Shown here piece after piece: positions 22,000 through 37,394 of a stretch of 37,394 bases of DNA. The notes below the pieces were generated by a model. That model was not told the DNA's origin, did not search any database, and worked only from the letters and a program-made list of their open reading frames with translations. The position numbers and the translations under genes were made by a program. Position 1 is the first letter of the stretch, and each line of letters starts with the position of its first letter. The stretch comes from Syntrophorhabdaceae bacterium (GTDB taxonomy: Bacteria; Desulfobacterota; Syntrophorhabdia; Syntrophorhabdales; Syntrophorhabdaceae): contig DATKMQ010000119.1 of the NCBI GenBank assembly GCA_035541755.1, positions 1-37,394 of the forward strand, read 5' to 3'.

Positions 22000-24900
22000 T
22001 CATTCGCCAGTCTTTGCGTCCAGTGCCTTCCTCACCGCTACGGCCAATTCATATTTAGCCAAGGGTTTCAAGAGTAATCCCCTGATCCCTGCTGCCGTGG
22101 CGCTGTCCACATTCACGCTGTCACTATGGCCGGTGCAGAGGATGATGGGAAGATCGGAACGCACGGTAAGCAATTGCTCTGCCAGACGGAGTCCGGTGAG
22201 TTCCGGCATGGTCTGGTCGGTGATCACGAGATCAAAGTGGAACGGGTCTCGGTAGAATAGTTTCAAAGCTTCCGAACTGCTTGTCATGGTTGTAACGGCA
22301 TAGCCTAACCTTTCCAGCATGTTCTTGCCCAATTCTGTGAGCATCTGTTCGTCGTCAACGAAAAGAATCTTCTCGTGACCCGTGGGGAATGCGAGAGAGG
22401 TTGAAGCCTCTGAAGGTTCATCCGCTACCGCCTTGGGGAGGAGAACCCTGAACGTAGAGCCCTCTCCAGGTACGCTCTGCACGGTGATCTCTGCATTGAA
22501 GCTCTTTACAATCCCATAGACCACGGCAAGCCCCATGCCCGTGCCCTGGCCCGGTTCCTTGGTAGTAAAGAAGGGATCGAATATCCTCTCCATGACTGTG
22601 GTATCCATGCCTGCTCCTGTATCCTCCACCACAAGTTCAAGGTAAGCTCCAGGCGAGAGATCCCGGTCATGGGCCTGGTAGGCGTCCTTCAGGGTTATGG
22701 TCAGCTTGCCGCCTTTCTCACGCATGGCGTGGGCGGCATTGGTCGCGAGGTTCATGATGATCTGCTGGATACCTGTGGCATTGGCAAGGATCGTATCTGA
22801 GTTTGTGGCGACGTTCATGCCGATAACGATGGTCGTGGGGATTGAGGCTCGCAGGAGTTTGACTGTCTCCTTGATAATGGGGGTCAATGGGATGGCCTTT
22901 ATCTCATAGGATGCCTTGCGGCTGAAACTTAACATCTGCCTGATGAGGTCGCGCGCCCTGAAGCCGCTTTTCAGCACGAGTTCCAGGTGGTGCCTCGCGG
23001 GGCTGTCAGGCGGTATGTCATCGAGGGCCATCTCGGTAAATCCGATCATGCCTGCGAGGATATTGTTGAAGTCGTGGGCGATACCGCCGGTGAGGGTCCC
23101 CAGGGATTCCATCTTCTGGGTTTGGCGGAGCTCCTCTTCGAGCTTACGCCGCTCGCTAATGTCCCGTGCAGCTGCGAACACCCCCGCTACTTTGCCTTCC
23201 TCGTCCCGGTAGACCGAGGCGTTGTACAGGACTGGAGTGATGTGGCCGTCTCTGTGTCTGATCTCCAGAGGATAATCACGCACAAGGCCCTTGGTGAAGA
23301 CCTGAAGGTAGCTTGCTCTGGCTTTTTGGGATTCGGTGAAGTAGTCGGAGAAGTCTGTACCGATGAGTTCATCCCGTCCATAGCCGGTAGCCTTCTCGGT
23401 TGCCGTATTCACGTCAGTGATCTTTCCCTCGGGGTCTATGGTTGCGAGGGGGTCGACGCTCGCCTCGATGAGGCTCCGGTTATAGGCGTTGGCGATTCGG
23501 ATTTCTTCTTCGATACGCTTCCGGTCCGTTATATCCATACCCATCTCGAGAATAAGCGGGGATCCGTCAGAGTCGGCGAAGGGAAAGTCGTGGATATCGT
23601 AGATGCGCCTGTCCGGGCCGGTCCACTGCCAGGATTGAGGCTTTGATGTTTTTAGCGTTTCATACGTGTAGCAGGTCCCGCAGGGTTCGGTCCGCCCGAA
23701 AAGATGCTCGAAACACTTCTTTTCCCCTGGGTCCCCGAACAGGTCCCGGAAGACGCGGTTGACGAATGGCATCCGGTAATCGGGCCCGAGCAGCGCCACA
23801 TAGGCAGGCAGAGATTCCAGAACGTCATAGAGCCTTTGGCGCTCTTTCGAGAGATTGGCGAAGGCCTGGTGGAGTTCGGCGGTACGTTCGTGGACACGGA
23901 GTTCAAGCTCCTCATAGGCTTTTTGAAGCGCCTGTTCGGCACGCTTGCGACGGGTAATCTCACGGCAGTAAATGCGAACCGCATTAAACTGAGGAACAAA
24001 ATGGATGGTCTCACCGAACACCCTGTCCTTTATCGTGACTTCTCGTGCGATTGTCCTGCTGGTGCCGTCCCAGTCCCTGAGAATGGAGCCCATATCCGAG
24101 GGGAGGAGGGGGCTGCAATCCCTCTTGTCCATACCGAGTTCTTCCAAAGTCTTCTCGACAGATGGGTTGCAGAAGGTAATATCGCCGGACAGGTCGACTT
24201 CGAGGATAGGGATTGGATCGAGTTCCGGGAAGGACGCAAGGCGGTTTGTGTGGTTTTCTTGCGCTCTTCGTTGCATGATGTTCCGGAAGACGAGAACGAC
24301 GCCGGTGGTCGTACCGTCCAGGTCTCTTACGGGTGCGCCGCTGTCGTCGATGGGGACCTCTGAGCCATCCTTCCTGATAAGGATCGTGTGGTTCGCGAGG
24401 CCCACCACAGTTCCTTCGCGCAGCACCCGGTCGACCGGGTTCTCAACCTCGTTGCGGGTATGCTCGTTTACGATCTGAAAGACCTCCGTTATCGGTCTTT
24501 GTTTGGCCCTCTCAAGCGTCCATCCAGTGACCTCTTCCGCGATCGGATTCATGAAGGTCACCCTGCCGTCTGTGTCGGTGACGATGACCGCATCGCCGAC
24601 GCTTGCAAGGGTTGTGGCCCAGCGCTGTTCACTCTTACGCAAGGCAGCCTTCCATGCGACGAGGGAGCCCGCCATGTCATCGAATGCACGCGCCAAATCC
24701 CCGAGTTCACCGTTCTTGACTATCCGTGATACGTTCACACCTTCCGGGCCTATCTTTACTTGCTCCGATGCCTTCTTAAGCAGGGCGACAGGATTCACGA
24801 TGAGACGCTTTCCGGCAAACCAGACGAGAAAGAGGCCAGCCCCGAAGAGTAAGGCGAGAAAGGCAAGACTCCATGCTGTTGCGGCATTTGCCTTGGCGGT

Positions 24901-25743
24901 CACCTCAGCGAGAGGCATGCCTGCCCGCACGTACATATAGGGCTCAGGTTCGTTAGAGAGGCGTAGTTTTCTGTAGGCGCCGATACGAAACCTGCCATCG
25001 TTGCCCACGCTGTCGATCTGCCCCTCATCAGGGCCCTTTTGCATCCGGGCAAAAGTCTCCGGTCTGGGGTCGACCTTTCCCACGAGTTCCCGAGACAGAG
25101 GATCGTTCAAGTTTCTGATGAAAATCACACCCCGATGATCGAGAAGGCTGAACGACCCACCGGGAGGAAGGTTAACGTTCTCAAAAGACTTCTGGGCGCA
25201 TTCCAGATCGAGGACCACGATGACGACCCCTGTCAGCCGATTCGTGGTATCCTTGACCGGGTGTGCGAAGCTTATGACCCCTTTTCTTGCCATCCTGCCC
25301 ATGACATACTCGCCCGATGAAAACATCCCGGTACGAACCGCCTGCTGGAAATACCTTCGATCGGCGAGCGACACCTTTCCCTCGAAAGGCAGTGAGGATG
25401 CCCAGACCATACCGGAATTATCCGTAATGGTAATGCTCGTGTACTGTGGATTTTTTTTTACGAGGTCGGCAAGAAGCGTGGTAACGGCGTCGCGCTTGTA
25501 CAATCTAACTTCTGGGAGGAGAGCGAGGGCCGTTGCCAATTGCTCTGCACCTCTCACCACTGCCTGCTGCTCTGCCGTTATGGTGTTGACAACTTCCAGA
25601 CAGTCCGCTCTGGCCTGGCTTATCGCTTCCCTGCGTTGTTTCATCCCCACATAGACTATGAGTACGGTGCATGAAGCGACGAGGATCAATAAGAGGATCG
25701 CAAATTGGGTACGGATGGATAAAGACCGGAGCTTACTGAGCAT
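22000..25743 (-). CDS. Large dCache-HAMP-multi-PAS hybrid histidine kinase with C-terminal receiver
   Basis: This 1247-residue inner-membrane sensor has a first membrane helix at residues ~12-33, a periplasmic double-Cache domain to ~285 and a second helix at ~290-312. A HAMP region (~313-365) is followed by PAS domains at about 370-490, 495-605, 645-755 and 765-880, with a coiled coil at ~605-640. The HisKA H-box GGIAHDFNN has phospho-His890. The ATPase has NLATNAAHAM, DTGAGM and GTGMGLAVVYGI. The receiver has VDDEQ, Asp1176 in ITDQTMPE and LLKPLAK. The third PAS has a cysteine cluster (Cys in KKCFEH and CGTC). It binds an extracellular small molecule and passes the signal through a phosphorelay. 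GAGGG precedes the ATG. No partner regulator is adjacent. Confidence 0.92.
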   Translation of the reverse strand: MLSKLRSLSIRTQFAILLLILVASCTVLIVYVGMKQRREAISQARADCLEVVNTITAEQQAVVRGAEQLATALALLPEVRLYKRDAVTTLLADLVKKNPQYTSITITDNSGMVWASSLPFEGKVSLADRRYFQQAVRTGMFSSGEYVMGRMARKGVISFAHPVKDTTNRLTGVVIVVLDLECAQKSFENVNLPPGGSFSLLDHRGVIFIRNLNDPLSRELVGKVDPRPETFARMQKGPDEGQIDSVGNDGRFRIGAYRKLRLSNEPEPYMYVRAGMPLAEVTAKANAATAWSLAFLALLFGAGLFLVWFAGKRLIVNPVALLKKASEQVKIGPEGVNVSRIVKNGELGDLARAFDDMAGSLVAWKAALRKSEQRWATTLASVGDAVIVTDTDGRVTFMNPIAEEVTGWTLERAKQRPITEVFQIVNEHTRNEVENPVDRVLREGTVVGLANHTILIRKDGSEVPIDDSGAPVRDLDGTTTGVVLVFRNIMQRRAQENHTNRLASFPELDPIPILEVDLSGDITFCNPSVEKTLEELGMDKRDCSPLLPSDMGSILRDWDGTSRTIAREVTIKDRVFGETIHFVPQFNAVRIYCREITRRKRAEQALQKAYEELELRVHERTAELHQAFANLSKERQRLYDVLESLPAYVALLGPDYRMPFVNRVFRDLFGDPGEKKCFEHLFGRTEPCGTCYTYETLKTSKPQSWQWTGPDRRIYDIHDFPFADSDGSPLILEMGMDITDRKRIEEEIRIANAYNRSLIEASVDPLATIDPEGKITDVNTATEKATGYGRDELIGTDFSDYFTESQKARASYLQVFTKGLVRDYPLEIRHRDGHITPVLYNASVYRDEEGKVAGVFAAARDISERRKLEEELRQTQKMESLGTLTGGIAHDFNNILAGMIGFTEMALDDIPPDSPARHHLELVLKSGFRARDLIRQMLSFSRKASYEIKAIPLTPIIKETVKLLRASIPTTIVIGMNVATNSDTILANATGIQQIIMNLATNAAHAMREKGGKLTITLKDAYQAHDRDLSPGAYLELVVEDTGAGMDTTVMERIFDPFFTTKEPGQGTGMGLAVVYGIVKSFNAEITVQSVPGEGSTFRVLLPKAVADEPSEASTSLAFPTGHEKILFVDDEQMLTELGKNMLERLGYAVTTMTSSSEALKLFYRDPFHFDLVITDQTMPELTGLRLAEQLLTVRSDLPIILCTGHSDSVNVDSATAAGIRGLLLKPLAKYELAVAVRKALDAKTGE

Positions 25744-25899
25744 AGATCAACCCTCACATACGTCGATTTTCCCGGAAACCCGGCGATGCATTAAGCACAT
25801 CAACTCATTATTATTCAGACAATCTAAGGGCAGACAAAGAAAAGGGCAAGGTCTATCCTCAGAAAAGTCAAGAGTTGGGAAATAAAAACGACAGACTCT
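25744..25899. other. Leader of the hybrid kinase, no gene seen
   Basis: These 156 bases, together with the IS scrap, fill the gap between two kinase genes. They must carry the promoter and leader for the kinase starting at 25743. A TTGACT-like hexamer near 25867 lacks a credible -10 partner. No RNA gene or repeat is evident. Confidence 0.3.
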
Positions 25900-26080
25900 C
25901 TATAGGACCTTGGCTTCGCAGAGCGTGGCGAATATCTCCAGTTTAAGAGTTCATTTCTGAGCTCGCTGTTGAATGATTGAATGTAGCCCTTCTCCCAGGG
26001 ACTCCCCGGTTCTATGAAGAGGGTTGCCACCGCGAGGTTGGCAAGCCATTGTCTCGCTGCCTTTGCGCTGAATTGGGGCC
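25900..26080 (-). pseudogene. IS3-family transposase (OrfB) fragment
   Basis: Reading leftward from 26080 gives PQFSAKAARQWLANLAV, then the IS3 rve-core landmark FIEPGSPWEKGYIQSFNSEL and RNELLN. After that a one-base frame change is needed to continue as EIFATLCEAKVL before TAG at 25902-25900. The Glu in the PWE...SFN segment is the last acidic residue of the DDE triad. The first two acidic residues, OrfA and both terminal repeats are missing, so this is a dead scrap of about 60 codons. It lies 12 nt beyond the stop of the next kinase gene. Confidence 0.8.
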
Positions 26081-26092
26081 CTCCAACAAGAA

Positions 26093-27604
26093 TTACGCAT
26101 TACGGTCAGAATTCTTACAGGCGGCTTTCTCTTCGTTCTGCCCGCTATCCAACACCTCTCTTACCTTCCGCAGGAGGGTAAGAGGTGAGATGGGCTTCTG
26201 AAGGAAGTTGAACTCTTCGTCTTGAATGCCTTTGTCGAGAAGAACGTCTCTGGTATATCCGCTTGTAAAGATCACCTTGATGCCGGGCTTGATCGCACGT
26301 ATTTCATTATAGGCTTCCCGTCCGTTCTTTTTCGGCATGACCGAGTCGAGGATCAGGAGGTCAATTGTATGGGCTGTCCTGAACTGGTCTACCGCATCCT
26401 GTCCGTCCACCGCTTCAATTGTCGTATACCCATGTTGTGTGAGTATTGTGCTTGCAAACTCTCTGACCGTTTCGCTGTCCTCTCCGATCAGAATAGTTTC
26501 CTTGCCTCCTTGAATAGGCCCCGGTCCGGACGTCTCTTTTTTTGAGTTTTTTTTGACGGTAGGGAGGTAGATATGAAAGGTCGTTCCCATCTGTGGTTCA
26601 CTGTATACCGTAATATAGCCTTTGTGCTGCTTGACGATTCCATAGACGGTAGAGAGCCCGAGACCGGTTCCTTTTCCCACTTCCTTGGTGGTAAAGAAGG
26701 GGTCAAAAATCCTTTTCTGCAGACTTTCATCCATGCCCGTGCCGGTATCGGAGACCGAGAGGAGGGCGTACGGTCCAGGTTTCACGTATGTGTGGAGTCG
26801 CTGGAACTCATCGTCCAGTTCCACCATTTCCGTCCTTATGGTAAGCGTACCGCCCTGCGGCATGGCGTCCCTGGCGTTGGTAGTAAGATTGAAGAGAATC
26901 TGGTCCATCTGGGTTGCATCGGCCATGACGATAATGTCGTCAGGAGCAAGGTATGTCTCGATAACCATGTCCTCGGTAAGGAGGCGGCTAAGGAGCTTCT
27001 CCGTCCTCCTGATGATCTCGTGGAGACTGACGGGCTCAAGTCTGATTCTTTGTTGTCTGCTGAAGGCAAGGAGGTTGCGTACAAGGTCGGCCGCCTTCTG
27101 CGAAGCAGCGAGGATCTGATCCACATAATTCCGTGACGTACCGCGCTTAACTTTCATTTGCAGGAGGGTGGCGTATCCGACGAGGGCTGTGAGGATGTTG
27201 TTGAAGTCGTGGGCGATACCTCCGGCTAAGGTACCGATGGCTTCCATTTTTTGGGCCTGATAGAGTTGAGCTTCAAGGCGCGTCCTTTCGTGCTCGGCCT
27301 GTTTCAGGTCGGTTATGTCGACCAGTGACGCCACACTTCTGTCAGTACCCGGGATCATGTCCACAACAAAACACATATCCCGCACTTCTCCGGTTCGTGT
27401 AACAAACTGGAATCCGTATTGCCTTGGGACCGCGTCAGGGTTCTTGCGACGTAGATGATGGGAAGAGAGCATCCTTCCTAGGTCTTCCTTGGTTACGAAT
27501 TCGGTCCAGCTCTTTTTGCCTTCAATTTCATCCTTGGTGTAGCCGGAAAGGCGTTGAAACTCGCTATTACAAAGACTGATTGTCGTGCTATTTTCGATAA
27601 TCAT
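26093..27604 (-). CDS. PAS-histidine kinase-receiver: C-terminal half of a split hybrid kinase
   Basis: This 503-residue reading frame starts in the middle of a PAS domain. Its frame is open a further 41 codons upstream to an in-frame TGA at 27730-27728, immediately before which the upstream PAS gene ends. The missing PAS start (SEKLYRTLFENTGTAT) is encoded in those 41 codons, so this is the rear of a larger gene. Domains are PAS (~1-105); HisKA with His132 in GGIAHDFNN; ATPase with NLTTNARDAM, DTGTGM and GTGLGLS; and receiver with GEDSE, the Asp of LILDSVMPKK and LQKPIS. If translated alone it would lack its sensors and have no obvious ribosome-binding site. It may be a pseudogene portion or depend on read-through. 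Confidence 0.85.
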   Translation of the reverse strand: MIIENSTTISLCNSEFQRLSGYTKDEIEGKKSWTEFVTKEDLGRMLSSHHLRRKNPDAVPRQYGFQFVTRTGEVRDMCFVVDMIPGTDRSVASLVDITDLKQAEHERTRLEAQLYQAQKMEAIGTLAGGIAHDFNNILTALVGYATLLQMKVKRGTSRNYVDQILAASQKAADLVRNLLAFSRQQRIRLEPVSLHEIIRRTEKLLSRLLTEDMVIETYLAPDDIIVMADATQMDQILFNLTTNARDAMPQGGTLTIRTEMVELDDEFQRLHTYVKPGPYALLSVSDTGTGMDESLQKRIFDPFFTTKEVGKGTGLGLSTVYGIVKQHKGYITVYSEPQMGTTFHIYLPTVKKNSKKETSGPGPIQGGKETILIGEDSETVREFASTILTQHGYTTIEAVDGQDAVDQFRTAHTIDLLILDSVMPKKNGREAYNEIRAIKPGIKVIFTSGYTRDVLLDKGIQDEEFNFLQKPISPLTLLRKVREVLDSGQNEEKAACKNSDRNA

Positions 27605-27727
27605 CGTTGCCGTACCTGTGTTTTCAAAGAGCGTGCGGTAGAGTTTTTCGGAATCAGCTAGTCTTCTTTCTGCCAGTTTCCGGTCGGTAATATCCTGATT
27701 TACCCCGTACCGCTTAATGACGCGGTC

Positions 27728-27730
27728 TCA
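27728..27730 (-). other. In-frame TGA splitting the hybrid kinase
   Basis: This TGA ends the upstream PAS reading frame, and the same frame continues open on its far side into the kinase. The exactly aligned codon in the neighbouring paralogue (30029-30027) is TCA (Ser), so one C-to-G change could have made the stop. Confidence 0.85.
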
Positions 27731-28858
27731 ATCGTCTTTGACGACGCGCGCCCGTACCACGATGTGGCGTACTTTACCATCGCGCCGAATAATGCGATGC
27801 TCTATATCGGGAGGGGATTCAGCCTCATGTCGAGTAAGGTTATACTGCACGTCATGAGACTGAGACAGGCGATCGTCAGGATGTACAAATCGTTCTCTGT
27901 ATTCTTCGCGCGACATCCGGTATCCGCCTTCTCGTGCGGCGGTCGTGCCGTAAAAAGCATAGAAGGGATCGTTGAATATCAATGCATTCTCGGCGGGGTC
28001 AAACTCCCAGTACACGATATCGGCGAGATCCACAGCCTGAGATAATTGAAGTTCGTTCCTGCGCAGGGCTTCTTCCATCCGTTTGCGTTCCGTGATATCA
28101 CGCGCTATGCCCATGATCGCCGTTGGATCGCCGTTATCATTGCGCAGAAAGGATGCCTTAGTCTCCGCCCATACGGTTGACCCGTCTTTGCACAACATTT
28201 CCAGCTCCAGAACTGTTGTGCGGTCAGGGTCGACCGTTTCATCCTTTATTAAATCCAGACTCTCCCGGATCGCCCTTGTTACCAATTCGAGACTTTCAGC
28301 CGTCATGGAATGGCTGATTGGCTGATCAATCAGTTCTTCCGGGGAAAACCCCCTTGCCTGTTTGACCGAGGGACTGACGTACTTGTATGTCAAGTCCAAG
28401 TTTAGAACATAGATCACGTCCGTAGCATTCTCTGCAAGCAGACGGTATCTATGCTCGCTTTCTTTCAACGCCTCCTCGGCGCATCTATGTCCCGTGATGT
28501 CGCATACCACGCCAATGACGTATTGCTGACCCGTGGCATCTGTGTAATGTGTTTTTGTTGTTTCGATTGTCCGCACTTCACCGTTTGCATCTGTTACTTG
28601 TTCTTCGCTGATGTCTTGTTCCCCGGTCTCGAACACAACCCCGGCGTGTGCTCTGAAAATGTCGGCTTCCTCTTTGGGGAATAGTTCGTGCGGGGTCTTG
28701 CCCAGCCACCGCTCCAACGCTATTCCAGACTGTTTGCAAAGCGCTTTGTTGACAAAGACGTATCTGTATTCAAGGTCCAGAATGAAGACCGGGTCCCCTA
28801 TGCAATCGAGAACCGATTTGCTGTATTCAGAGGACTCGGTGATATTTTTTATGTGCAT
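27728..28858 (-). CDS. Three-PAS sensor protein: N-terminal half of a split hybrid kinase
   Basis: This 376-residue protein has no membrane segment. It has PAS domains at about 10-130 (FILDLEYRYVFVNKALC), 133-258 (RYRLLAENATDVIYVL) and 263-376 (AVDLADIVYWEFDP), and ends abruptly at VVKDD inside the third PAS. The paralogue at 29505 continues at this point with RLIRRYGVNQDIT, and the same sequence type (RVIKRYGVNQDIT) is encoded right after the TGA here. The ancestral protein was therefore about 921 residues: PAS-PAS-PAS-PAS-HisKA-ATPase-receiver. AAAGGAGG lies 14 nt before the ATG. As it stands the product is a sensor without output. Confidence 0.85.
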   Translation of the reverse strand: MHIKNITESSEYSKSVLDCIGDPVFILDLEYRYVFVNKALCKQSGIALERWLGKTPHELFPKEEADIFRAHAGVVFETGEQDISEEQVTDANGEVRTIETTKTHYTDATGQQYVIGVVCDITGHRCAEEALKESEHRYRLLAENATDVIYVLNLDLTYKYVSPSVKQARGFSPEELIDQPISHSMTAESLELVTRAIRESLDLIKDETVDPDRTTVLELEMLCKDGSTVWAETKASFLRNDNGDPTAIMGIARDITERKRMEEALRRNELQLSQAVDLADIVYWEFDPAENALIFNDPFYAFYGTTAAREGGYRMSREEYRERFVHPDDRLSQSHDVQYNLTRHEAESPPDIEHRIIRRDGKVRHIVVRARVVKDD

Positions 28859-28991
28859 ATATTATGTTTAGCGGCCTCCTTTGATCTGCATGCCAAAATC
28901 AGCGGGATGCGTGGCCAAGCCGAAGGTAGGTTGAGGATTTCGAATTTAAGGGCTAATGAATAGACGCCACAGTCTGTTACAACCTGAAGCC

Positions 28992-29360
28992 TTATCTCTG
29001 GTCGGTGCTTTTTAATAGCCATTTAATTGCCAATTTTTCGTCCGAGAAAACCCTGAGCTGCGCCCCCCGGTTTGTCGCCACGGTTTCTGCGAATCTGTTC
29101 AAAACATCAGGACTCGAGAGTACGGCAACCTTGAGAGGCGGCCGGATTACTTCTGACAGATATTTGCCTATAGTATATCGAACCATCTCGTTTTTGGGCT
29201 TTGACCACCGTGTTAAATCGAGTAGAATACGGTTGTGCCCTTTATTCCGGGCCTCAAGAAGCATGCCTTCGGTTACTATCTGCGCGTTTTTTACTGTAAA
29301 AGAGGAGGAAGCATCCCTGACAACAAGGTAACCCGTCCGATCCAAATACTCTATGTTCAT
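28992..29360 (-). CDS. SpoIIAA/STAS-like small protein
   Basis: This protein has about 122 residues from the ATG at 29360 (MNIEYLDRTG), which has GAGGG at proper spacing; the longer frame to 29396 is less likely. It shows an alternating strand-helix pattern with a central RILLDLTRWSKPKN, then LKVAVLSSPDVLNRF and the C-terminal FSDEKLAIKWL. This suits the SpoIIAA-like (STAS/SEC14-type) small-domain family, in which members bind partners or lipids. It sits between the two paralogous PAS genes, in the same direction. A role linked to those sensors is possible but unproven. Confidence 0.6.
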   Translation of the reverse strand: MNIEYLDRTGYLVVRDASSSFTVKNAQIVTEGMLLEARNKGHNRILLDLTRWSKPKNEMVRYTIGKYLSEVIRPPLKVAVLSSPDVLNRFAETVATNRGAQLRVFSDEKLAIKWLLKSTDQR

Positions 29361-29504
29361 CGCTGGCCCTCGTTTCTGATAGATCGATAATTCCATAAGG
29401 GCATAGTATTATTTAGGTATATGGCCAGGGTCAAGCGAAATCAAGCCCAGGCAACCTATAATTTCCTTGCGATTATCCTATAGGTACTTTACGGGAGCGT
29501 ATTG

Positions 29505-31157
29505 CTAAAGGGAGAGTAAGTGTGCCTGAAGATTGACGGTTTTATGTTTTAGGCCCAGTTTCTTTCTGATGTTGTTCCGGTGGACCTCGACGGTGCCCTC
29601 AGAGATATTCAGCAGTTCTGCTATCTGCTTGCTGCCCTTGCCGGCCCTGATCAGGTTGGCTATCTGGATCTCGGTCTTCGTGAAGTGGGAATAGGCAGCG
29701 CCCAGCTTATGCAGGAAAGGAGAGATTATCTCGTTCAGACCGGACTCGACGATGCCTACGTACGTTTTCTGGACATCGCTCATCTGCGTATTCTTCAGCC
29801 TCTCGATGTAGGGCACGATGAGCTCTCGCACATTGGTGTGGATGGCATTTTCGAGCGTTGATTTGTCTTCGTCCCGGTGTTTCAGCAATACTTTCAGAGC
29901 GCTGTTCACTTCCTGGAGATCAAAAGACTTTTTTTCCAGTTCGTGCTCTCTGCTCCTAAGCTCTTCTTCGACTTCCTTGCGCTTTGTGATGTCCTGATTC
30001 ACCCCGTACCTCCTGATTAAGCGGCCTGAGGCGTCCATGACGTTTGTTGCCAGAACCACAGTATGTCGTACTTTGCCGTCGCGCCGAACAACGCGGTGCT
30101 CTATAGGGGGAAGGGGTCCGGTGATGTTTTCTGCAAGAATCCGTTGCACTGTTTCAAGGACACCTGGTTGATCGTCAGGATGAACAAATCGCTTTCTGTA
30201 TTCTTCGCCCGTCATCCGGTATCCGCCTTCACGCTCGGCGGTGGTGCCATAAAAGGCATAAAAGGCATCGTTGAAAATCTGCACGTTCTCGACAGGGTCA
30301 TACTCCCAGTACACGATATCGGCAAGATCCATGGCCTGAGATAATTGAAGTTCGCTCCTGCGCAGGACTTCTTCCATCCGTTTGCGTTCCGTAATATCAC
30401 GCGCTATGCCCATGATCTCTATTGGATCGCCGTTATCGCTGTGCAGAAACGATGCCTTTACCTCGACCCACATGGTCGAGCCGTCTTTGCGTATCATTTC
30501 CAGCTCCAGGACTTTGCCCCGGTCGGGGTCAACCGTTTCGCCTTCTTCTCGTTCCAGATCTTCCCGGATAGCACTTACCACGAATTCGAGACTTTCAGCC
30601 GTCATATTATGGCTGATTGGCTGATCAATCAACTCTTCTGGGGAAAACCCCCATGCCTGTTTGACCGAGGGACTGACGTACTTGTATGTTAAGTCCAAGG
30701 TAAGAACAGAGATCACGTCCGTAGCATTCTCGGCAAGCAGACGGTATCTATGCTCGCTTTCTTTTAACGCCTCTTCAGCGGCCTTATTTTCCGTGATTTC
30801 GCGCAGCACGCCGATGAGGTATTGTTCGCCTGTGGCATCCTTATAAACCGTTTTCGTTGTTTCGATTGTATGGACATTACCGTATGCGTCGGTTGCCTGT
30901 TCTTCTTTAACACTTTGCTTCCCGGTCTCGAAGACTTGCCTGGCATCCTCCATGAAAATATCGGCCTGCTCCTTGGGAAATAATTCTTGCGCGGTCCTTC
31001 CCAGCCACCGCTCTAAGGGAATCCCAGACTTTTCGCAAAGCGCTTTGTTGACGAAGACATTCCTGTATTGACGGTCCAGAATGAAGACCGGGTCTCCAAC
31101 ACAATCGAGAACCGGTTTGCTGTATTCCAAGGCCTTCGGGAGATTATCGCTCCACAT
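29505..31157 (-). CDS. Three-PAS LuxR-type transcriptional regulator
   Basis: This protein has 550 residues from the ATG at 31157 (MWSDNLPKAL), preceded by AAAGGAGG at 13 nt, the same layout as its paralogue; the frame further upstream to 31220 is leader. PAS domains lie at ~10-130, ~133-258 and ~263-385. A coiled coil (RSREHELEKKSFDLQEVNSA) and a helical segment common in soluble PAS-LuxR proteins (NVRELIVPYIERLK) follow. The C-terminal GerE/LuxR helix-turn-helix is FTKTEIQIANLIRAGKGSKQ, then NISEGTVEVHRNNIRKKLGL. It should bind DNA as a dimer in response to a cytoplasmic signal sensed by the PAS domains. It lacks a receiver. It shares its sensor module with the split kinase next door, implying the same or related signals. 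Confidence 0.9.
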   Translation of the reverse strand: MWSDNLPKALEYSKPVLDCVGDPVFILDRQYRNVFVNKALCEKSGIPLERWLGRTAQELFPKEQADIFMEDARQVFETGKQSVKEEQATDAYGNVHTIETTKTVYKDATGEQYLIGVLREITENKAAEEALKESEHRYRLLAENATDVISVLTLDLTYKYVSPSVKQAWGFSPEELIDQPISHNMTAESLEFVVSAIREDLEREEGETVDPDRGKVLELEMIRKDGSTMWVEVKASFLHSDNGDPIEIMGIARDITERKRMEEVLRRSELQLSQAMDLADIVYWEYDPVENVQIFNDAFYAFYGTTAEREGGYRMTGEEYRKRFVHPDDQPGVLETVQRILAENITGPLPPIEHRVVRRDGKVRHTVVLATNVMDASGRLIRRYGVNQDITKRKEVEEELRSREHELEKKSFDLQEVNSALKVLLKHRDEDKSTLENAIHTNVRELIVPYIERLKNTQMSDVQKTYVGIVESGLNEIISPFLHKLGAAYSHFTKTEIQIANLIRAGKGSKQIAELLNISEGTVEVHRNNIRKKLGLKHKTVNLQAHLLSL

Positions 31158-31216
31158 ATTGTTTTTAGGACCTCCTTTGATCTGTTTGCGATGATCGGCA
31201 GGATGCGGGGCCAAGC
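29986..31216 (-). repeat. Segmental duplication, copy B (three-PAS sensor module plus leader)
   Basis: This is the partner of the repeat at 27687-28920. Homology ends at the downstream side just after the YGVNQDIT codons, where outputs diverge: kinase plus receiver in copy A, coiled coil plus LuxR here. The upstream side includes the ribosome-binding region and about 45 further bases. Confidence 0.85.
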
Positions 31217-31502
31217 GCAAGCTAACCCTGGACCCGATTTCTCGGGTTGTTGCGTATCATAGCCAAGACCATCGCAACATTATAATACTACCATAACTAT
31301 TCAGACGAACGTGTAGCGACCAGGCGAAGTCTGCCGAAGCAATACCAGGAAGAAGCTGGGCCTGAAACATAAAACCGTTAATCTTCAGGCATACTTACCC
31401 TCACTTTGGCAGCTTGCCCATTAAAATATATATAGGCTAATCGAAAGGAAATTATAGGGTATTTGGTCTTAATTTCCTCTCACCCATCCCGATGAATTGT
31501 GC
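31158..31502. other. Divergent intergenic region between the PAS-LuxR gene and the che operon
   Basis: These 345 bases contain the PAS-LuxR leader, a LuxR-gene scrap (31323-31424) and AT-rich sequence around 31424-31460, which probably holds the che operon promoter. TATAAT-like hexamers occur near 31281 and 31433, but none has a good -35 partner, so I call no promoter. Confidence 0.4.
31323..31424 (+). pseudogene. Inverted scrap of a LuxR-family gene 3' end
   Basis: On the + strand the codons from 31323 read GEVCRSNTRKKLGLKHKTV, then NLQAYLPSL, ending at TAA 31422-31424. This matches the last ~28 residues of the PAS-LuxR protein on the opposite strand (VEVHRNNIRKKLGLKHKTV, then NLQAHLLSL), and the DNA is clearly similar over about 80 bases. 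An in-frame TAG at 31314 closes it upstream. It is the dead tail of a third family member in inverted orientation. Confidence 0.75.
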
Positions 31503-33278
31503 ATGGACATGATGACCGTGATAACCTGCGCCGAGGCCGTTGACGGCCATAATACTGACGAGCAAAATGAATCGGCCCGAAAATTTGCGGCAGCCAGCGC
31601 GGGAGATCTCAGAGCCCTGAACGTATCGACGGAGAATGACTTCCTTTCGATAGGTTCGTACCTGCAGAAACTCTCCAGTCAGGCGATATCCATATCTAAG
31701 GCTGCTGGGTCCGTCGCAAAAATGGTAGGAAGCGAAGAGGCCGTGGCGAGCACGGACAGACTCAGAGATGCCGAGGCTTGTATAGGCACGTATCTTGAGA
31801 AGTCCCAGGGCAGGTTTACGTACACCTCCGATTCCATGCTTCACATCATACGCCTTATGGACGCTGTCTACACGCCCCTATCCACATTCAAGAGCATAGT
31901 CAAGCACCTTCACATGCTCGGTATTTCAACGAGAATAGAAGATGCGCGTGTCAACAGCGACGGCAGATTCGACACGCTCTCGAAACATGTAGAGAAGCTC
32001 TCGGTTATGATCGCATCAAGAGCGGACGCTATTGTCAAGGCCATCGTTTCGCTGCAGGAAATAATGAAGCAAAGCCGTCCACAGGTGGACAGCGCGAGAG
32101 ACATGATGAGCATCAGGGCGCAGAGCATGCTCAACCGGATCAAATCGGGCCTTTCAATGTTTCTTGAAAAGGGAGAATTATCCTCTCAGACGGCCATAAG
32201 CCTGGCGGCGAATTCGGAACAGGTGGCATCAAACATTTCGCGCGTAATCTCCTCTCTACAGTTTCAGGATATCACTCGCCAACAGATCGAACATGTAGTC
32301 GATTTGTTCGATGAGGTGGCCAGTGAAATCGTTGTCCCGCGTGATATCGTGGCTATTCTTGCAGACACCGGCCCTGTTCAGATCGACCAGCTCGAACATG
32401 CGAGGAAAGAGATGGGCTCAGCTGTGGCAACGATCATAAACGGCCTTGAAGCTATAGCCCGGAATCTCTGGTCCATGCTTAGAGAAACGGAAAAGCTCAC
32501 GGGTATTGCCGGGAATGCCCACTCCTCATTCCTGGCGGACATTAACTATTCGGTTTCATTCGTTGTCGGATCGCTCGAGGAGAACAGAGAAGCCGACGAG
32601 CAGCTCGCTCGCGCCGTAGGTGATCTTTCCGACTCGATTCAGAACGTCTCCGCTCATGTGGACGACATCGAGGAGATATCGTCCGAAATCGAGCTTATTG
32701 CCATCAACGCCCAGATCAGGGCCGCCCATATGGCCGAAAACGGGGGTGCTCTTGGCGTACTGGCCGAAGCCATCAGAAACCTTTCCGAGACTACCAGTAA
32801 ACAGACACTGGCTATCACGAGTGCGCTTGAAAGTGTGAGGGAAGCTTCCGTGAGTCTGAGTGCCGAGAGCCAAAGAAACGGAAACGGGGAGGATATCCTG
32901 GCCATGAGAACAGAAATTGATTCAGTGCTTGATTTTTTGGGGGAATCTCAGCAGACACTCTCCTCGCTTCTCACCCAACTGAAAAAGGAAACAAGTGAGC
33001 TTACGGAAGCAATACAGACGGTTATCAAGAGCGTGAGTGCGCATACCAGGACAGACGAGGTTGTCGGAAAGATCATAAAGGATTTTCGTAATATTGTGGA
33101 AGGACGGAAAGTTGAAGTCGGCTTAGCGACGCCTACAAACGGGGACTATCTCACCCGTCTGGCCGAACGCTATACCATGCAGCAGGAACGAACCGTGCAT
33201 CAGGCCCGTCTGGCCGGTACCAACGACTCACCGTCACTGAAGGAAGATCATTTTTTGGACAACGTTGAGCTGTTCTAG
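31503..33278 (+). CDS. Soluble MCP-like coiled-coil protein with a CheZ-like motif
   Basis: This protein of about 591 residues has no membrane segment or ligand domain, is mostly helical, and is the first gene of the che operon. Near residues 395-440, ISSEIELIAINAQIRAAHM and GVLAEAIRNLSETT resemble, but diverge from, the MCP signalling hairpin. A second similar segment lies at ~135-175 (LHMLGISTRIEDARV). Between them, FQDITRQQIEHV has Asp256 and Gln260 in the D-x-x-x-Q spacing used by CheZ to dephosphorylate CheY. It could be a cytoplasmic receptor-like scaffold, a CheY phosphatase, or both. The start is uncertain: a TTG at 31497 and ATGs at 31503, 31509 and 31512 all lack a good ribosome-binding site; an in-frame TAA at 31470 sets the limit. 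Confidence 0.75.
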   Translation: MDMMTVITCAEAVDGHNTDEQNESARKFAAASAGDLRALNVSTENDFLSIGSYLQKLSSQAISISKAAGSVAKMVGSEEAVASTDRLRDAEACIGTYLEKSQGRFTYTSDSMLHIIRLMDAVYTPLSTFKSIVKHLHMLGISTRIEDARVNSDGRFDTLSKHVEKLSVMIASRADAIVKAIVSLQEIMKQSRPQVDSARDMMSIRAQSMLNRIKSGLSMFLEKGELSSQTAISLAANSEQVASNISRVISSLQFQDITRQQIEHVVDLFDEVASEIVVPRDIVAILADTGPVQIDQLEHARKEMGSAVATIINGLEAIARNLWSMLRETEKLTGIAGNAHSSFLADINYSVSFVVGSLEENREADEQLARAVGDLSDSIQNVSAHVDDIEEISSEIELIAINAQIRAAHMAENGGALGVLAEAIRNLSETTSKQTLAITSALESVREASVSLSAESQRNGNGEDILAMRTEIDSVLDFLGESQQTLSSLLTQLKKETSELTEAIQTVIKSVSAHTRTDEVVGKIIKDFRNIVEGRKVEVGLATPTNGDYLTRLAERYTMQQERTVHQARLAGTNDSPSLKEDHFLDNVELF

Positions 33279-33298
33279 ACACGATGGAGGGAAGGTCC

Positions 33299-33652
33299 AT
33301 GACCGATTGTGTAGTTGAAAAGAATAATAATGAAACTATTCTCCATCTTTCCGGTGAATTGCAGATTGAGTATGCGGCTCAACTACGGTCTCTGCTTGCC
33401 GATTCCCTGAGAGAAGCCGACCTGGTAAAGATAGACCTGTCCTCGGTTACCGCTGCGGACATCTCCTGCTTGCAGCTTTTTTGTGCTGCACATAAAACAT
33501 CGCTAGCAGCAAATAAACTTCTGGATCTTATTGGAATACCGTCGACCGCTTTCAAAGACCTGGCCCGCCGAACAGGATGTATTCGCTCAAGTGGGTGCAA
33601 TCCTGACAAGGGAACGTCGTGTTTGTGGAGTGAGGAAAAATATTATGGCTAA
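33299..33652 (+). CDS. STAS-domain protein of the chemosensory operon
   Basis: This 117-residue protein starts at the ATG at 33299, which has GGAGGG 9 nt before it; the ATG at 33284 would overlap that site. The fold pattern is STAS (anti-anti-sigma-like): ILHLSGELQIEYAAQL, then VKIDLSSVTAADISCLQLF, then the C-terminal helix. The residue aligned with the phosphorylatable Ser of SpoIIAA falls in ADIS. The tail has three cysteines (TGC, SGC and SCLW), an unusual feature. STAS proteins beside cheY and cheA in deltaproteobacterial clusters are common, but their role is not settled. It overlaps cheY by 8 nt. Confidence 0.8.
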   Translation: MTDCVVEKNNNETILHLSGELQIEYAAQLRSLLADSLREADLVKIDLSSVTAADISCLQLFCAAHKTSLAANKLLDLIGIPSTAFKDLARRTGCIRSSGCNPDKGTSCLWSEEKYYG

Positions 33653-34010
33653 GAGGATCATGACGGTGGACGATTCGGCAAGCGTCAGACAAATGGTCGG
33701 CTTTACCCTGAGGCAAGCAGGCTATGAAGTGATTGAGGCGGTCGACGGTAAAGATGCCCTATCGAAACTCGATGGAAGTGCTGTTCATATGGTGATAACC
33801 GACCTCAACATGCCGAATCTTGACGGTATCGGCCTGATCAAGGGTGTACGGGGTCACAATTCGTACAAGTTCATACCCATCGTCATGCTAACTACTGAAT
33901 CTCAGGAATCGAAGAAGCTCGAAGGGAAGCAGGCAGGGGCCACTGGTTGGATCGTGAAGCCCTTCAAGCCGGAACAACTTGTTGCGGTTACAAGGAAGGT
34001 ACTGGGATGA
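33645..34010 (+). CDS. cheY: CheY response regulator
   Basis: This 121-residue single receiver has VDDSA at the N-terminus, phospho-acceptor Asp53 in VITDLNMPN, LTTES with the switch Thr, and the invariant Lys in VKPFKPEQL. It is the expected phosphoryl acceptor from the CheA just downstream. The ATG at 33645 has GAGG 9 nt upstream and lies within the STAS gene's last codons; the stop overlaps the cheA start as ATGA. It is more like CheYs of alternative (non-enteric) che systems than E. coli CheY. Output could be flagellar motor, pili or another process. Confidence 0.93.
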   Translation: MAKRIMTVDDSASVRQMVGFTLRQAGYEVIEAVDGKDALSKLDGSAVHMVITDLNMPNLDGIGLIKGVRGHNSYKFIPIVMLTTESQESKKLEGKQAGATGWIVKPFKPEQLVAVTRKVLG

Positions 34011-36100
34011 ACGACAAACACGGCGAAGCGTTTAGGGAAGAGGCGTACGAACTGTTATCTGAACTGGAAGGCTCCCTTCTGGAGCTGGAAGAGACGCCAA
34101 GTGACCCGCAGCTGATCGGTAGGGTTTTTCGAGTCATGCACACGATCAAGGGGTCAGGTGCCATGTTCGGTTTCGACGACATTGCAGCATTTACGCATGA
34201 GATAGAGAACGTGTACGACAAGGTTCGGAGCGGAGAACTGAACATAACGAAACAGCTCATAGACCTGACTTTAAAATCAAGAGACCTGATAAAGCTCATG
34301 TTGGACGGCGAAGCCCCCGAGAAGACAATACTGGAAGAAACGGTAGCAGCCTTCAAAACCACTACATCCCCCCCAACGCCAACGGGTGCTTCGCCGTTCT
34401 CCCCCCTACATGAGATGTCTTCGGGCGAGAGTGTCACATACCGCATACGCTTCGAGCCAGCCCCCGGTATCTTTCTGAACGGTACCAACCCGGTGCTCCT
34501 CCTCGACGAACTTCGCGAGCTTGGTGAGTGCGTTGTGACGGCGCAACTCGACCAGATTCAACTACTTGATTGTATAAACCCCGAGTATTGCTATGTCTGG
34601 TGGGACATCGTCCTGACTACGAGCAAAGGAACGAACGCGATAAAAGATGTATTCATCTTCGTAGAAGATCAGTGCAAGATCACGATCGAACCCATCGAAA
34701 GAGAGGCCGACGTTGTGCCGGCGGGGAGTGCGCGAGCGTATAAGAAAATAGGGGAGATCCTGGTTGACAGGGGGGATGTGAGGCAGGAAGACGTTCAGTA
34801 CGCGCTCAAGGAAAAGAAATATGTCGGACAATTACTTGTCGAAAAGGGGTTGACGACAGCAGAAAAGGTCGAGTCGGCGCTCGTCGAGCAACGGCACATA
34901 CAAAAGATGAGAGAAAAGGCTCAAGTGAAAGAGGAAGGCATATCGAGCTTGCGGGTCCCGTCCGAGAAGCTCGACGTTCTTGTCAACCTCGTCGGTGAGC
35001 TTGTAACGGCCCAGGCTCGGCTCACGCAGACGGCGTCGACCCTTGCCAATAGTAACCTCGTCTCTATAGCCGAGGAGATTGAAAGACTCACCGCTGAACT
35101 AAGAGACAACACACTGAACATCCGAATGTTGCCTATCGGTTCCACCTTTGCCCGGTTCAAGCGCCTCATTCGCGACCTTTCCCGGGAACTGGGCAAAGAG
35201 ATAGAGATGACGACGGAGGGCGAGGAGACCGAGCTTGACAAGACGGTCATCGAAAAGCTGAACGACCCCCTCGTTCATCTTATACGAAACTGCATAGACC
35301 ATGGCATAGAAACCCCCGATCTGCGGGAGAGACTCGGAAAAAGAAGAACAGGCAGGATCCGTCTATCCGCTGCCCACTCGGGGGCACACGTGGAGATAGT
35401 GATAGAAGACGATGGGGGAGGACTCGACAAGAGCGCGATATTGGCCAAGGCTTATGAGAAGGGTCTTGTTTCCCCGGGCCAGGAATTGACCGACAGAGAG
35501 CTTCTTAATCTTATTTTTGCTCCCGGATTTTCCACGGCTAAGAAAGTTACCAATGTGTCCGGGCGTGGCGTGGGCATGGATGTTGTGAAAAGCGCCATAG
35601 ATGTCTTGCGGGGCACGATCGATATTGCAAGTGAGGAGGGGAGGGGGACCACGGTGCTTATAAGGCTTCCTCTCACGCTCGCCATAATCGAAGGTCTGAT
35701 TGTGACCCTCGGGGGTCGCTATTACATCCTTCCTCTGTCCATTGTGGAGGAGTGTGTGGAACTGACAGAGCAAGACGCCAGAAAATCGCATGGGAGAAAT
35801 CTTGCCCACATCCGGGGAGACCTGGTCCCATATGTAAGACTTCGCAAAGAGTTCGATATTCCGGGAGAGGCACCGCCCATAGAGCAGATTGTTATCACGG
35901 GTTGCAATGGGGAAAAAGTAGGCCTGGTAGTCGATAAGGTGATTGGTGAGCATCAAACGGTCATCAAGAACCTGGGGAGATGCTACAGGGATGTGGACGC
36001 TGTTTCAGGGGCGACCATCCTGGGCGACGGAACCGTAGCTCTTATAGTGGATACTGCAAAGGTCATAAAAAATGCGGAACGGGCGGAGGCGGCCCGCTGA
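34007..36100 (+). CDS. cheA: CheA histidine kinase with an extra GspE-N-like module
   Basis: This protein has 697 residues from the ATG at 34007 (AAGGAAGGT upstream). The Hpt domain (1-110) has phospho-His45 in MHTIKGSGAM. Residues ~145-235 form a domain seen in some CheAs (YRIRFEPAPGIFLNGTN, then DVFIFVEDQ) in place of the classical CheY-binding P2. Residues ~245-300 (KIGEILVDRGDVRQEDVQYA, then GQLLVEKGLTTAEKVESALVEQ) look like a MshEN/GspE-N repeat pair. P3 dimerisation (SEKLDVLVNLVGELVTAQ), P4 ATPase (LIRNCIDHGIE, DDGGGL, GRGVGMDVV) and a CheW-like P5 follow. It phosphorylates CheY under receptor control. The unusual middle region may bind another regulator or a nucleotide. Confidence 0.94.
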   Translation: MNDKHGEAFREEAYELLSELEGSLLELEETPSDPQLIGRVFRVMHTIKGSGAMFGFDDIAAFTHEIENVYDKVRSGELNITKQLIDLTLKSRDLIKLMLDGEAPEKTILEETVAAFKTTTSPPTPTGASPFSPLHEMSSGESVTYRIRFEPAPGIFLNGTNPVLLLDELRELGECVVTAQLDQIQLLDCINPEYCYVWWDIVLTTSKGTNAIKDVFIFVEDQCKITIEPIEREADVVPAGSARAYKKIGEILVDRGDVRQEDVQYALKEKKYVGQLLVEKGLTTAEKVESALVEQRHIQKMREKAQVKEEGISSLRVPSEKLDVLVNLVGELVTAQARLTQTASTLANSNLVSIAEEIERLTAELRDNTLNIRMLPIGSTFARFKRLIRDLSRELGKEIEMTTEGEETELDKTVIEKLNDPLVHLIRNCIDHGIETPDLRERLGKRRTGRIRLSAAHSGAHVEIVIEDDGGGLDKSAILAKAYEKGLVSPGQELTDRELLNLIFAPGFSTAKKVTNVSGRGVGMDVVKSAIDVLRGTIDIASEEGRGTTVLIRLPLTLAIIEGLIVTLGGRYYILPLSIVEECVELTEQDARKSHGRNLAHIRGDLVPYVRLRKEFDIPGEAPPIEQIVITGCNGEKVGLVVDKVIGEHQTVIKNLGRCYRDVDAVSGATILGDGTVALIVDTAKVIKNAERAEAAR

Positions 36101-36101
36101 C

Positions 36102-36716
36102 ATGGCATTCACCTTCTTTTTCAGAGATACGCAAATCTTGAAGCTCGCGGTCGAACATGTCGTACCTTTTGCAATGGGGAGAAGCAGGGTGCGCATCTGG
36201 GATGCGGGATGTGCCATGGGGCCGGAGCCCTATTCTTTGGCTATCCTGCTCGCCGAGAGCATGGGATATTTCGCTTTCAAAAATCTTCGAATCTACGCCA
36301 CCGATATTGATGAAACTGATACCTTTGGGCAGACAATCAGAACCGGAACGTATCCAGAGGAAGACTTGAAGCGAATCCAGCCCGATATCTTCAAAAAGTA
36401 TTTTGTACCGAACGATAAGCCTGGTTACTTCCGGGTTGTTGATACGATCCGGGAGCACGTTATCTTCGAGAAACACGATTTACTTTCGCTGCGTCCTATC
36501 GGGGAAGACTTCAGCCTTATTCTGTGTAAGAACGTGCTGTTGCATTTTCAACCGAACGAAAGAATCGATGTGATAAAGCTCTTCCATGGTTCATTGTCGC
36601 AGGGCGGCTATTTGGCGACGGAACAGACGCAGAAGATGCCGGAGCAGGTGGAGTATCTCTTTGGGAGAGTGGCCGCGAATGGACAAATATTCAAAAAAGA
36701 GGCGGCACAGGCATGA
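36102..36716 (+). CDS. cheR: Short CheR methyltransferase
   Basis: This protein of about 204 residues starts 1 nt after the cheA stop. It matches the SAM-dependent catalytic domain of CheR, which methylates glutamates on MCPs: FFRD near the start, the SAM loop DAGCAMGPEPYSLAILL (usually GCSTGEEPYS), RIYATDIDE, LILCKNVLLHFQ and GGYLATEQT. The family's N-terminal helical domain, about 70 residues, is absent, since the gene begins almost at the FFRD motif. In-frame sequence upstream lies inside cheA and does not supply it. This looks like a natural short variant rather than a truncation, because the start is tightly coupled to cheA. Confidence 0.88.
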   Translation: MAFTFFFRDTQILKLAVEHVVPFAMGRSRVRIWDAGCAMGPEPYSLAILLAESMGYFAFKNLRIYATDIDETDTFGQTIRTGTYPEEDLKRIQPDIFKKYFVPNDKPGYFRVVDTIREHVIFEKHDLLSLRPIGEDFSLILCKNVLLHFQPNERIDVIKLFHGSLSQGGYLATEQTQKMPEQVEYLFGRVAANGQIFKKEAAQA

Positions 36717-36951: not shown

Positions 36952-37394
36952 ATGTTCCGTAAAGACATGAAGTCTCTGTCAAGTGAAATTGGTACGATGC
37001 TAGAAATGCAGAAGAAAGGCGACATCGAATGGTTTATTCCCGTGGACAAACTGGAAGGAGAATCTAAGCAGATAGCTTTGAACGTGAACGACCTGATAAA
37101 GCTCCACGTTGAGAACGTCTTGAAGATCGTCGGGATTGTCGCAAGCTATGCCTCAGGCGATTTTTCTCCTGTTCTTGAAGAGCTGCCCGGTAAGCAGAAA
37201 ATTGCTAATGAGAAACTGAACTTGCTCCGAGGCAACCTTGTCAGCCTGACGGTCGATGCAAATATGTTGTCCAAGGCGGCCGTTGAAGGTAAGCTCGCAA
37301 CCCGCGCTGATGCCACAAAGCATGAAGGTGACTTCCGCAAGATCGTCCAGGGTGTGAACGATACCCTCGACGCAGTCATCGGTCCTCTGAACGT
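36952..37394 (+). CDS. Soluble methyl-accepting chemotaxis protein, N-terminal part (3' end outside window)
   Basis: The frame is open from the ATG at 36952, with AAGGAGGAG at ideal spacing, to the right edge (147 codons). The start, MFRKDMKSLSSEIGTML, has no signal or membrane helix. From about residue 60 it shows HAMP-like repeats (VENVLKIVGIVASYASGDF, then ANMLSKAAVEGKLATRAD), a pattern found in MCPs with tandem HAMP domains. The signalling hairpin must lie beyond the window. It is likely the receptor served by the upstream cheA and cheR; 62 nt separate it from the small ORF. Confidence 0.85.
   Translation, partial: MFRKDMKSLSSEIGTMLEMQKKGDIEWFIPVDKLEGESKQIALNVNDLIKLHVENVLKIVGIVASYASGDFSPVLEELPGKQKIANEKLNLLRGNLVSLTVDANMLSKAAVEGKLATRADATKHEGDFRKIVQGVNDTLDAVIGPLN

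Follow-up and report, generated by a model that had tools for sequence, protein, structure and literature searches.

Is the receptor-like protein at the head of a che operon in a Syntrophorhabdaceae bacterium itself a phosphatase of CheY-P, built around an active site of the CheZ type? The question is raised by a gene in a 37,394-nucleotide stretch of DNA (the window), which is one entire contig of a 3.85-Mb assembly. The earlier note on this DNA had drawn attention to a D-x-x-x-Q motif in the gene product, and the open reading frame, the motif, and the residue numbers D256 and Q260 that it gave were all right: the gene starts with ATG at 31503 and encodes 591 amino acids, and both residues sit in SSLQFQDITRQQIEHVVD of the translation.

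31503..33278, + strand: whole gene; its product carries a duplicated MCP hairpin and a CheZ-type site (open reading frame, translation, and 86-row alignment)

Distribution and conservation of the family

Family members were found in 23 of the 60 related genomes searched, and a scan of one genome per species across 84,980 species returned 241 relatives, 80 of which were kept. The kept relatives come from Geobacter, Desulfovibrio, Syntrophobacterales and relatives, Ignavibacteria, a Nitrospirae genome, Planctomycetota including Kuenenia, and Acidobacteria; a plasmid search with the window protein gave no match at 1e-8. The 86-row alignment consists of the 80 scan relatives and 26 members, minus contig duplicates and the fragments L026, L031, L033, L074, and L103; L085 and L109 were also left out, without good reason. 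Nine of its columns are invariant: E44, G51, L166, Q253, D256, Q260, N402, E562, and F591.

All 86 aligned relatives thus keep D256 and Q260, a conservation that is partly built in for loci L035 to L114 because the motif DITRQ[QK][VIL]EH was one of the two seeds of the scan. Both residues were also kept in 26 of 26 proteins, the window protein counted, in a search without the motif seed, in 13 of 13 full-length members from a later search with a profile that itself contains the motif, and in all left-out members that span the site. Three later-fetched rows without the site (L201, L202, and one piece of L074) are half-2 or N-terminal fragments. Among 198 genomes of the phylum, CheZ was above cutoff in 49, and the family profile was matched in 23 when related receptors and fragments are counted. 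Some genomes carry both, which rules out the family as a general replacement of CheZ.

The che operon and its CheY

The claim that the gene heads a che operon held, as the following genes lie downstream on the same strand.

33299..33652, + strand: STAS-domain protein (STAS_2, E 7.4e-14; alternative start possible at 33284)
33645..34010, + strand: CheY, the presumed substrate (Response_reg, E 1.9e-25)
34007..36100, + strand: CheA (Hpt, H-kinase_dim, HATPase_c, and CheW)
36072..36716, + strand: CheR catalytic domain (CheR, E 8.1e-40)
36952..37392, + strand: HAMP protein, truncated by the end of the contig and presumably a receptor (HAMP_2, E 2.8e-12; HAMP_N3, E 3.7e-11)

Downstream genes were counted at the 70 loci whose downstream sequence spans 1.8 kb or more, 12 others being too short to count. 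CheA was encoded within 3 kb of the family gene at 62 loci, CheY was encoded within 1.5 kb at 61, and a recognized STAS gene lay within 300 bases at 37; at loci without CheA, CheY was still downstream in 7 of 8. The CheYs adjoining the family gene have the equivalents of D57 and K109 in 61 of 61 cases, of E89 in 61, and of N59 in 59. We conclude that the neighboring CheY is, by its residues, a canonical partner with the active-site lysine. FliM is present in the source organism, and therefore flagellar output is possible.

Neither cheZ, cheC, nor cheX occurs as a separate gene in the window, as the earlier note had remarked, and three CheX homologues above cutoff are encoded elsewhere in the source genome. 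The three CheX rule out a genome devoid of other CheY-P phosphatases, and the family protein therefore need not be the only one.

Three further observations concern the surroundings. A second operon-type copy, on another contig of the source genome (L034; G000:C90:1-10000), comprises a family gene, STAS, CheY, CheA, and a receptor. Upstream of the che operon in the window, positions 22000-31220 of the - strand encode multi-PAS hybrid histidine kinases (from translation) and a PAS-LuxR regulator. Residues 274-297 of CheA (34007-36100) come near an MshE-type c-di-GMP-binding motif (NF053729; 33.3 bits, cutoff 38), and c-di-GMP might, judging from that resemblance, be tied to CheA kinase activity through this segment.

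Internal duplication of a chemoreceptor hairpin

Two divergent MCP hairpins had been proposed for the protein, and both were recovered: the second exceeds the Pfam MCPsignal cutoff, and the two halves are homologous.

31560..32357, + strand: half 1 (residues 20-285), first MCP-like hairpin, with the CheZ-like helix at its end
32352..33182, + strand: half 2 (residues 284-560), second MCP-like hairpin
32667..32786, + strand: tip region of hairpin 2 (residues 389-428), with charged contacts changed
33045..33059, + strand: second site, decayed (residues 515-519); corresponds to D256-Q260 in the half-half alignment and has no conserved D or Q

MCPsignal scored 37.3 bits on the second half (cutoff, 34.6) and was the sole family above cutoff in the 591-residue protein. 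In hhalign, for which all P-values given here are single-pair values, half 1 aligned with half 2 over 240 columns (Prob 96.9, P 1.3e-10; P 0.021 for the reversed control), and a 13-row profile of receptors described below matched half 1 at P 2e-28 and half 2 at P 2.1e-22. In a tree of the halves of 22 members together with receptors, half 1 and half 2 each formed one clade (support, 100/100), and there was therefore one duplication before the spread across phyla. We conclude that the protein, as judged from these alignments and the tree, goes back to a single, ancient duplication of a chemoreceptor signaling hairpin within the gene and that the ancestry it shares with receptor hairpins is well supported.

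The canonical MCP tip contacts, which we take to be N381, E385, and R388 of Tsr, were compared with both hairpins. Half 2 has N (residue 402) in 86 of 86 rows, K or R at the E385 position (residue 406) in 84, and H at the R388 position (residue 409) in 66, a set other than the canonical one. Half 1 has S, E, and R at the three positions in 69, 84, and 61 of the 86 rows, respectively.

The AlphaFold2 model built from the 86 rows was all helical (pLDDT 87.1, pTM 0.69), with helices starting at residue 7 and running up and down twice in long stretches that turn at residues 151-154 and 410-414. The helices are broken at 252-253 in one half and at 511-512 in the other, which are equivalent positions. 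No Pfam sensor domain was found in the protein. With an E threshold of 0.001, Foldseek returned no match to the predicted structure, and most of the matches listed by VIA-align were long helical bundles of no relation to the protein (Z up to 14.5 in one listing and 17.1 in the other; Z below about 13 may reflect only a common arrangement). Receptors appeared as 3g67_B (Z 10.1) and 3zx6_B (Z 10.0) in the first listing and as 8c5v_I (Z 11.3, 3.5 A, 277 aligned) in the second; CheZ was not among the matches listed in either, an absence that proves nothing. Structural matches to single-chain helical bundles cover both hairpins, and the modeled bundle is probably intramolecular. We conclude that the 591-residue protein is a helical, probably soluble protein that combines a CheZ-type site with a doubled chemoreceptor hairpin.

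Two conserved segments follow the bundle.

33171..33191, + strand: YTMxxER segment (residues 557-563), between bundle and tail; E562 invariant, pattern in 79 of 86 rows
33258..33275, + strand: DNVELF tail (residues 586-591), C-terminal; F591 in 86 of 86 rows

The YTMxxER segment recurs in similar form in related receptors. An N[VI]ELF ending was present in 24 of the 24 complete members first examined, and tails across the family are mostly N[VIF][ED][LF]F. The tail pattern occurred nowhere in the source genome outside the two family members and was not found in other closed open reading frames of the scanned neighborhoods. CheR pentapeptides follow the rule xZxxZ (Z being F, W, or Y), and some MCPs do without one, according to the available part of PMC7390727. 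NVELF was ruled out as such a pentapeptide for 85 of 86 rows, with xZxxZ matched by one, and EFEKF-like pentapeptides are frequent at the ends of neighboring receptors.

A helix shared with CheZ

The proposal of a CheZ-like active-site helix was upheld beyond chance by profile-profile comparison.

32166..32330, + strand: CheZ-like helix (residues 222-276), 55 gap-free columns aligned with CheZ
32268..32282, + strand: predicted active site, D256 (32268-32270) and Q260 (32280-32282), each in 86 of 86 rows and in outward phase

As a single sequence, residues 216-291 matched Pfam CheZ at E 0.004 and 17.5 bits, below the cutoff of 30.7, and this was the only CheZ match in the whole source genome; the NCBIfam CheZ model (NF041271) gave 15 bits against a cutoff of 350. 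A Pfam scan of 23 members found MCPsignal in 23 and CheZ at E below 0.1 in 12. For profile comparison, a 27-row CheZ profile was assembled from E. coli CheZ and 26 of 30 fetched loci, chosen for [FY]QD[LIV][TSA]GQ. Residues 215-300 matched it at P 6e-6, with D256 and Q260 in register with CheZ D143 and Q147. When an 80-residue frame was slid along the protein, five frames starting at 191-231 gave P 6.4e-5 or better, and the best (P 4.2e-6, start 211) lay on the DxxxQ motif. Off the motif, the best frame gave 0.0025 and lay on the pseudo-symmetric helix of half 2, and six ordinary receptors of the same genome, used as a control, reached at best 0.033. Moreover, the hydrophobicity profiles of the family helix and CheZ correlated at r 0.82 in the DxxxQ register and at no more than 0.34 at shifts of 1 to 7.

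The likeness centers on one of the two helices of the CheZ bundle. The second CheZ helix matches the window family, and the first does so at P 6e-4 at best; an alignment of the excised hairpin with CheZ gave a weak match for this family (P 1e-4), with the second helix alone well placed. A profile search of PDB chains matched receptors and did not find CheZ. We conclude that shared ancestry of helix 222-276 with the catalytic helix of CheZ is well supported at the level of sequence profiles.

Receptors with the same helix

Profile search of the 198 phylum genomes also returned proteins of about 410 to 450 residues with a receptor tip, in which the motif QxQDxxRQ (x mostly F, L in L162) ends the same hairpin. 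Like the family, these receptors follow the motif with a YTM- or YVM-type segment and then an IELF-type tail; unlike it, they have one hairpin, a canonical tip in most, and hydrophobic N-terminal stretches in most (by eye). In a ten-row alignment, the motif never varies at its D, R, and Q. MCPsignal was above cutoff in 9 of 9, and CheZ was found below threshold in 4 of 9 (best E 8e-5). Under a strict cutoff, such a receptor occurred in 11 of the 198 genomes. In Sphaerotilus, Methylobacterium, and Methylosinus, plasmid-borne relatives carry the annotation methyl-accepting chemotaxis protein, and where the receptors (L161-L169, L171, and P0003-P0005) are annotated, that is their only name. In further plasmid searches, the C-terminal part of receptor L164 gave no match at 1e-4, and that of L161 matched four records at 0.01; a PDB sequence search with the receptor C terminus gave no useful match.

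The 13 receptor rows, which comprise 11 fetched loci minus L170 (split in two open reading frames) and three plasmid proteins, matched CheZ at P 3.2e-8. The ascending receptor helix matched the first CheZ bundle helix at P 8.8e-6, with ordinary receptors reaching at best 0.012. When the tip columns were removed, the receptors aligned to residues 48-167 of E. coli CheZ with both segments in order at P 7.9e-9; controls gave 1.9e-4 with the CheZ-like end removed, 0.1 for the tip segments, and 4.4e-6 with the order swapped. Since both CheZ helices are present in order, the receptors look like a CheZ hairpin that continues into a receptor tip. As true receptors share the CheZ helix, some receptors may end the signal that they help start.

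We tentatively propose, at somewhat less than even odds, a class of chemoreceptors with a CheZ phosphatase as the membrane-side half, CheA being at the tip and CheY-P being dephosphorylated at the base, of which the window protein would be a single-chain, one-site descendant. If this is true, the state of the receptor could control the phosphatase at its base. CheZ may have been derived from such receptors, or a CheZ may have acquired a receptor tip and given rise to them. No description of CheZ-bearing receptors was found in the literature, mainly open-access papers having been searched, so that this absence is no proof.

A single predicted phosphatase site on a probable pseudo-dimer

The best explanation, to which we give a probability of roughly 0.6, is that the window protein is a single-chain pseudo-dimer of receptor hairpins with one working CheZ-type CheY-P phosphatase site. 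Two chemoreceptor signaling hairpins, fused head to tail, would form a long helical bundle, with the single active site at the bundle end distant from the tips. CheA would phosphorylate the adjoining CheY, and the flexible NVELF tail would catch CheY-P, as the layout of CheZ (bundle, linker, and C-terminal peptide) suggests. D256 would pair with the active-site lysine of CheY, as D143 does in CheZ, and Q260 would orient the attacking water, as Q147 does, such that CheY-P is hydrolyzed. The ancestors would have been receptors with one site per subunit, and after duplication one site would have been kept while the other decayed. We infer CheY binding, CheY-P catalysis, and any link of the family protein to the array. 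The receptor-like CheY phosphatase proposed earlier is partly supported: the CheZ-helix homology, the invariant outward D and Q, the canonical CheY, and the receptors with the same helix speak for a candidate phosphatase. The word receptor fits the relatives better than the window protein, in which no Pfam sensor domain was found and the hairpin-2 tip is changed.

The residues beside the site raise an alternative function. The residue before Q is glycine in 27 of 27 CheZ profile rows and arginine in 85 of 86 family rows, and the residue before D (position 255) is Q in 27 of 27 CheZ rows and H in 85 of 86 family rows. SxQFH precedes D in the family and AxxFQ in CheZ, the latter being a rule stated in the available part of PMC7750401. 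The arginine before Q260 might block close approach of CheY. The protein could then dock CheY-P without catalysis, its CheZ-derived face and tail holding or storing CheY-P near CheA and the arginine stopping hydrolysis, which could fall to the three CheX of the same genome. Both catalytic residues were nevertheless kept in every row while the second copy decayed freely, and an amide and an acid in register are unneeded for pure docking. We consider docking without catalysis unlikely.

Another alternative is that the protein is a soluble receptor-like part of the array, in which the DxxxQ helix is structural, breaking at 252-253 ahead of a packed segment, and makes no contact with CheY. Consistent with a structural helix, MCPsignal alone is above cutoff, in both structure models the helix is interrupted at 253 or 252-253, and there are conserved residues in the region beyond DxxxQ. 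The two residues, however, are directed off the core: D lies 114 to 144 degrees and Q 166 to 176 degrees from it in the family, compared with 126 to 140 and 178 to 180 degrees in CheZ. This outward hydrophobic phase counters, at the level of sequence, the burial of D256 and Q260 in a coiled coil, which the earlier note had set against its own proposal. Moreover, the helix is like CheZ and not like ordinary receptors, and a canonical CheY adjoins. We conclude that D256 and Q260 are predicted to point outward from the hydrophobic core, like their CheZ counterparts, and that a purely structural helix deserves little weight.

That the helix and motif resemble CheZ by chance or convergence is very improbable, because a single-sequence score under the Pfam cutoff and the commonness of loose matches among long helices are outweighed by the in-register profile match with its controls and by the stronger match in receptors, where another CheZ helix also matches, in the right order (P 8.8e-6).

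Comparison with known systems

With CheZ (PF04344) the family shares a DxxxQ helix that aligns in register and has the same hydrophobic face, an F before the motif, and, beyond a linker, a C-terminal tail that ends in F, as in 18 of 27 CheZ rows. It differs in that the site is carried on a chemoreceptor bundle, once per duplicated chain, in scoring below the CheZ cutoffs, and in an NVELF-like tail in place of the VDxLLxxxGF or VDDLLxxxGF-like peptide of CheZ. Because the family truly departs from CheZ in three features, namely the change of G to R, the H ahead of D, and the tail, membership in CheZ is not claimed. With the MCP signaling domain (PF00015), the family shares two MCP-type hairpins, the second above cutoff and both homologous to receptors. 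Unlike MCPs, the family protein has two hairpins per chain, changed charged tip residues, and a CheZ-type site, and neither a sensor domain nor a CheR pentapeptide was found in it.

CheC, CheX, and FliY have a different fold, and the CheX of the source genome are separate genes. The logic of an amide and an acid acting on CheY-P would be common to them and the family: in CheZ and in CheC/CheX/FliY, an inserted amide orients the water and an inserted acidic residue pairs with the receiver lysine, as described in the available text of PMC3035606. The part available of a 2023 survey of CheA architectures has most systems using CheZ or CheC/CheX (PMC10782961).

CheW-CheZ fusions occur in the same phylum with both domains above Pfam cutoffs (L127, 814-2004, + strand; L125, 787-2103, + strand). 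Like the family, they join CheZ to an array protein; unlike it, their CheZ is above cutoff and the partner is CheW instead of receptor hairpins. We conclude that the CheW-CheZ fusion is another route that ties a CheY phosphatase to the array. CheZ proteins of approximately 540 amino acids, in which a long insert separates the two helices of the bundle, were also seen (L143, 238-1869, + strand; L144, 1276-2889, + strand; L145, 563-2173, - strand), and no Pfam domain was above cutoff in the insert.

Implications

D256 and Q260 offer a direct two-residue test of family function. Family members are hard to spot because they are scored as receptors. In the part available of a 2008 survey, Geobacter is described as without cheZ, such that a CheZ-independent mechanism must operate (PMC2577667); Geobacter genomes carry the family, which is a candidate CheY-P phosphatase in lineages so described. 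In chemotaxis, receptor, kinase, and phosphatase usually count as distinct components. A protein that has a CheZ site on a receptor fold would place signal termination on the receptor scaffold and would hint at the origin of CheZ.
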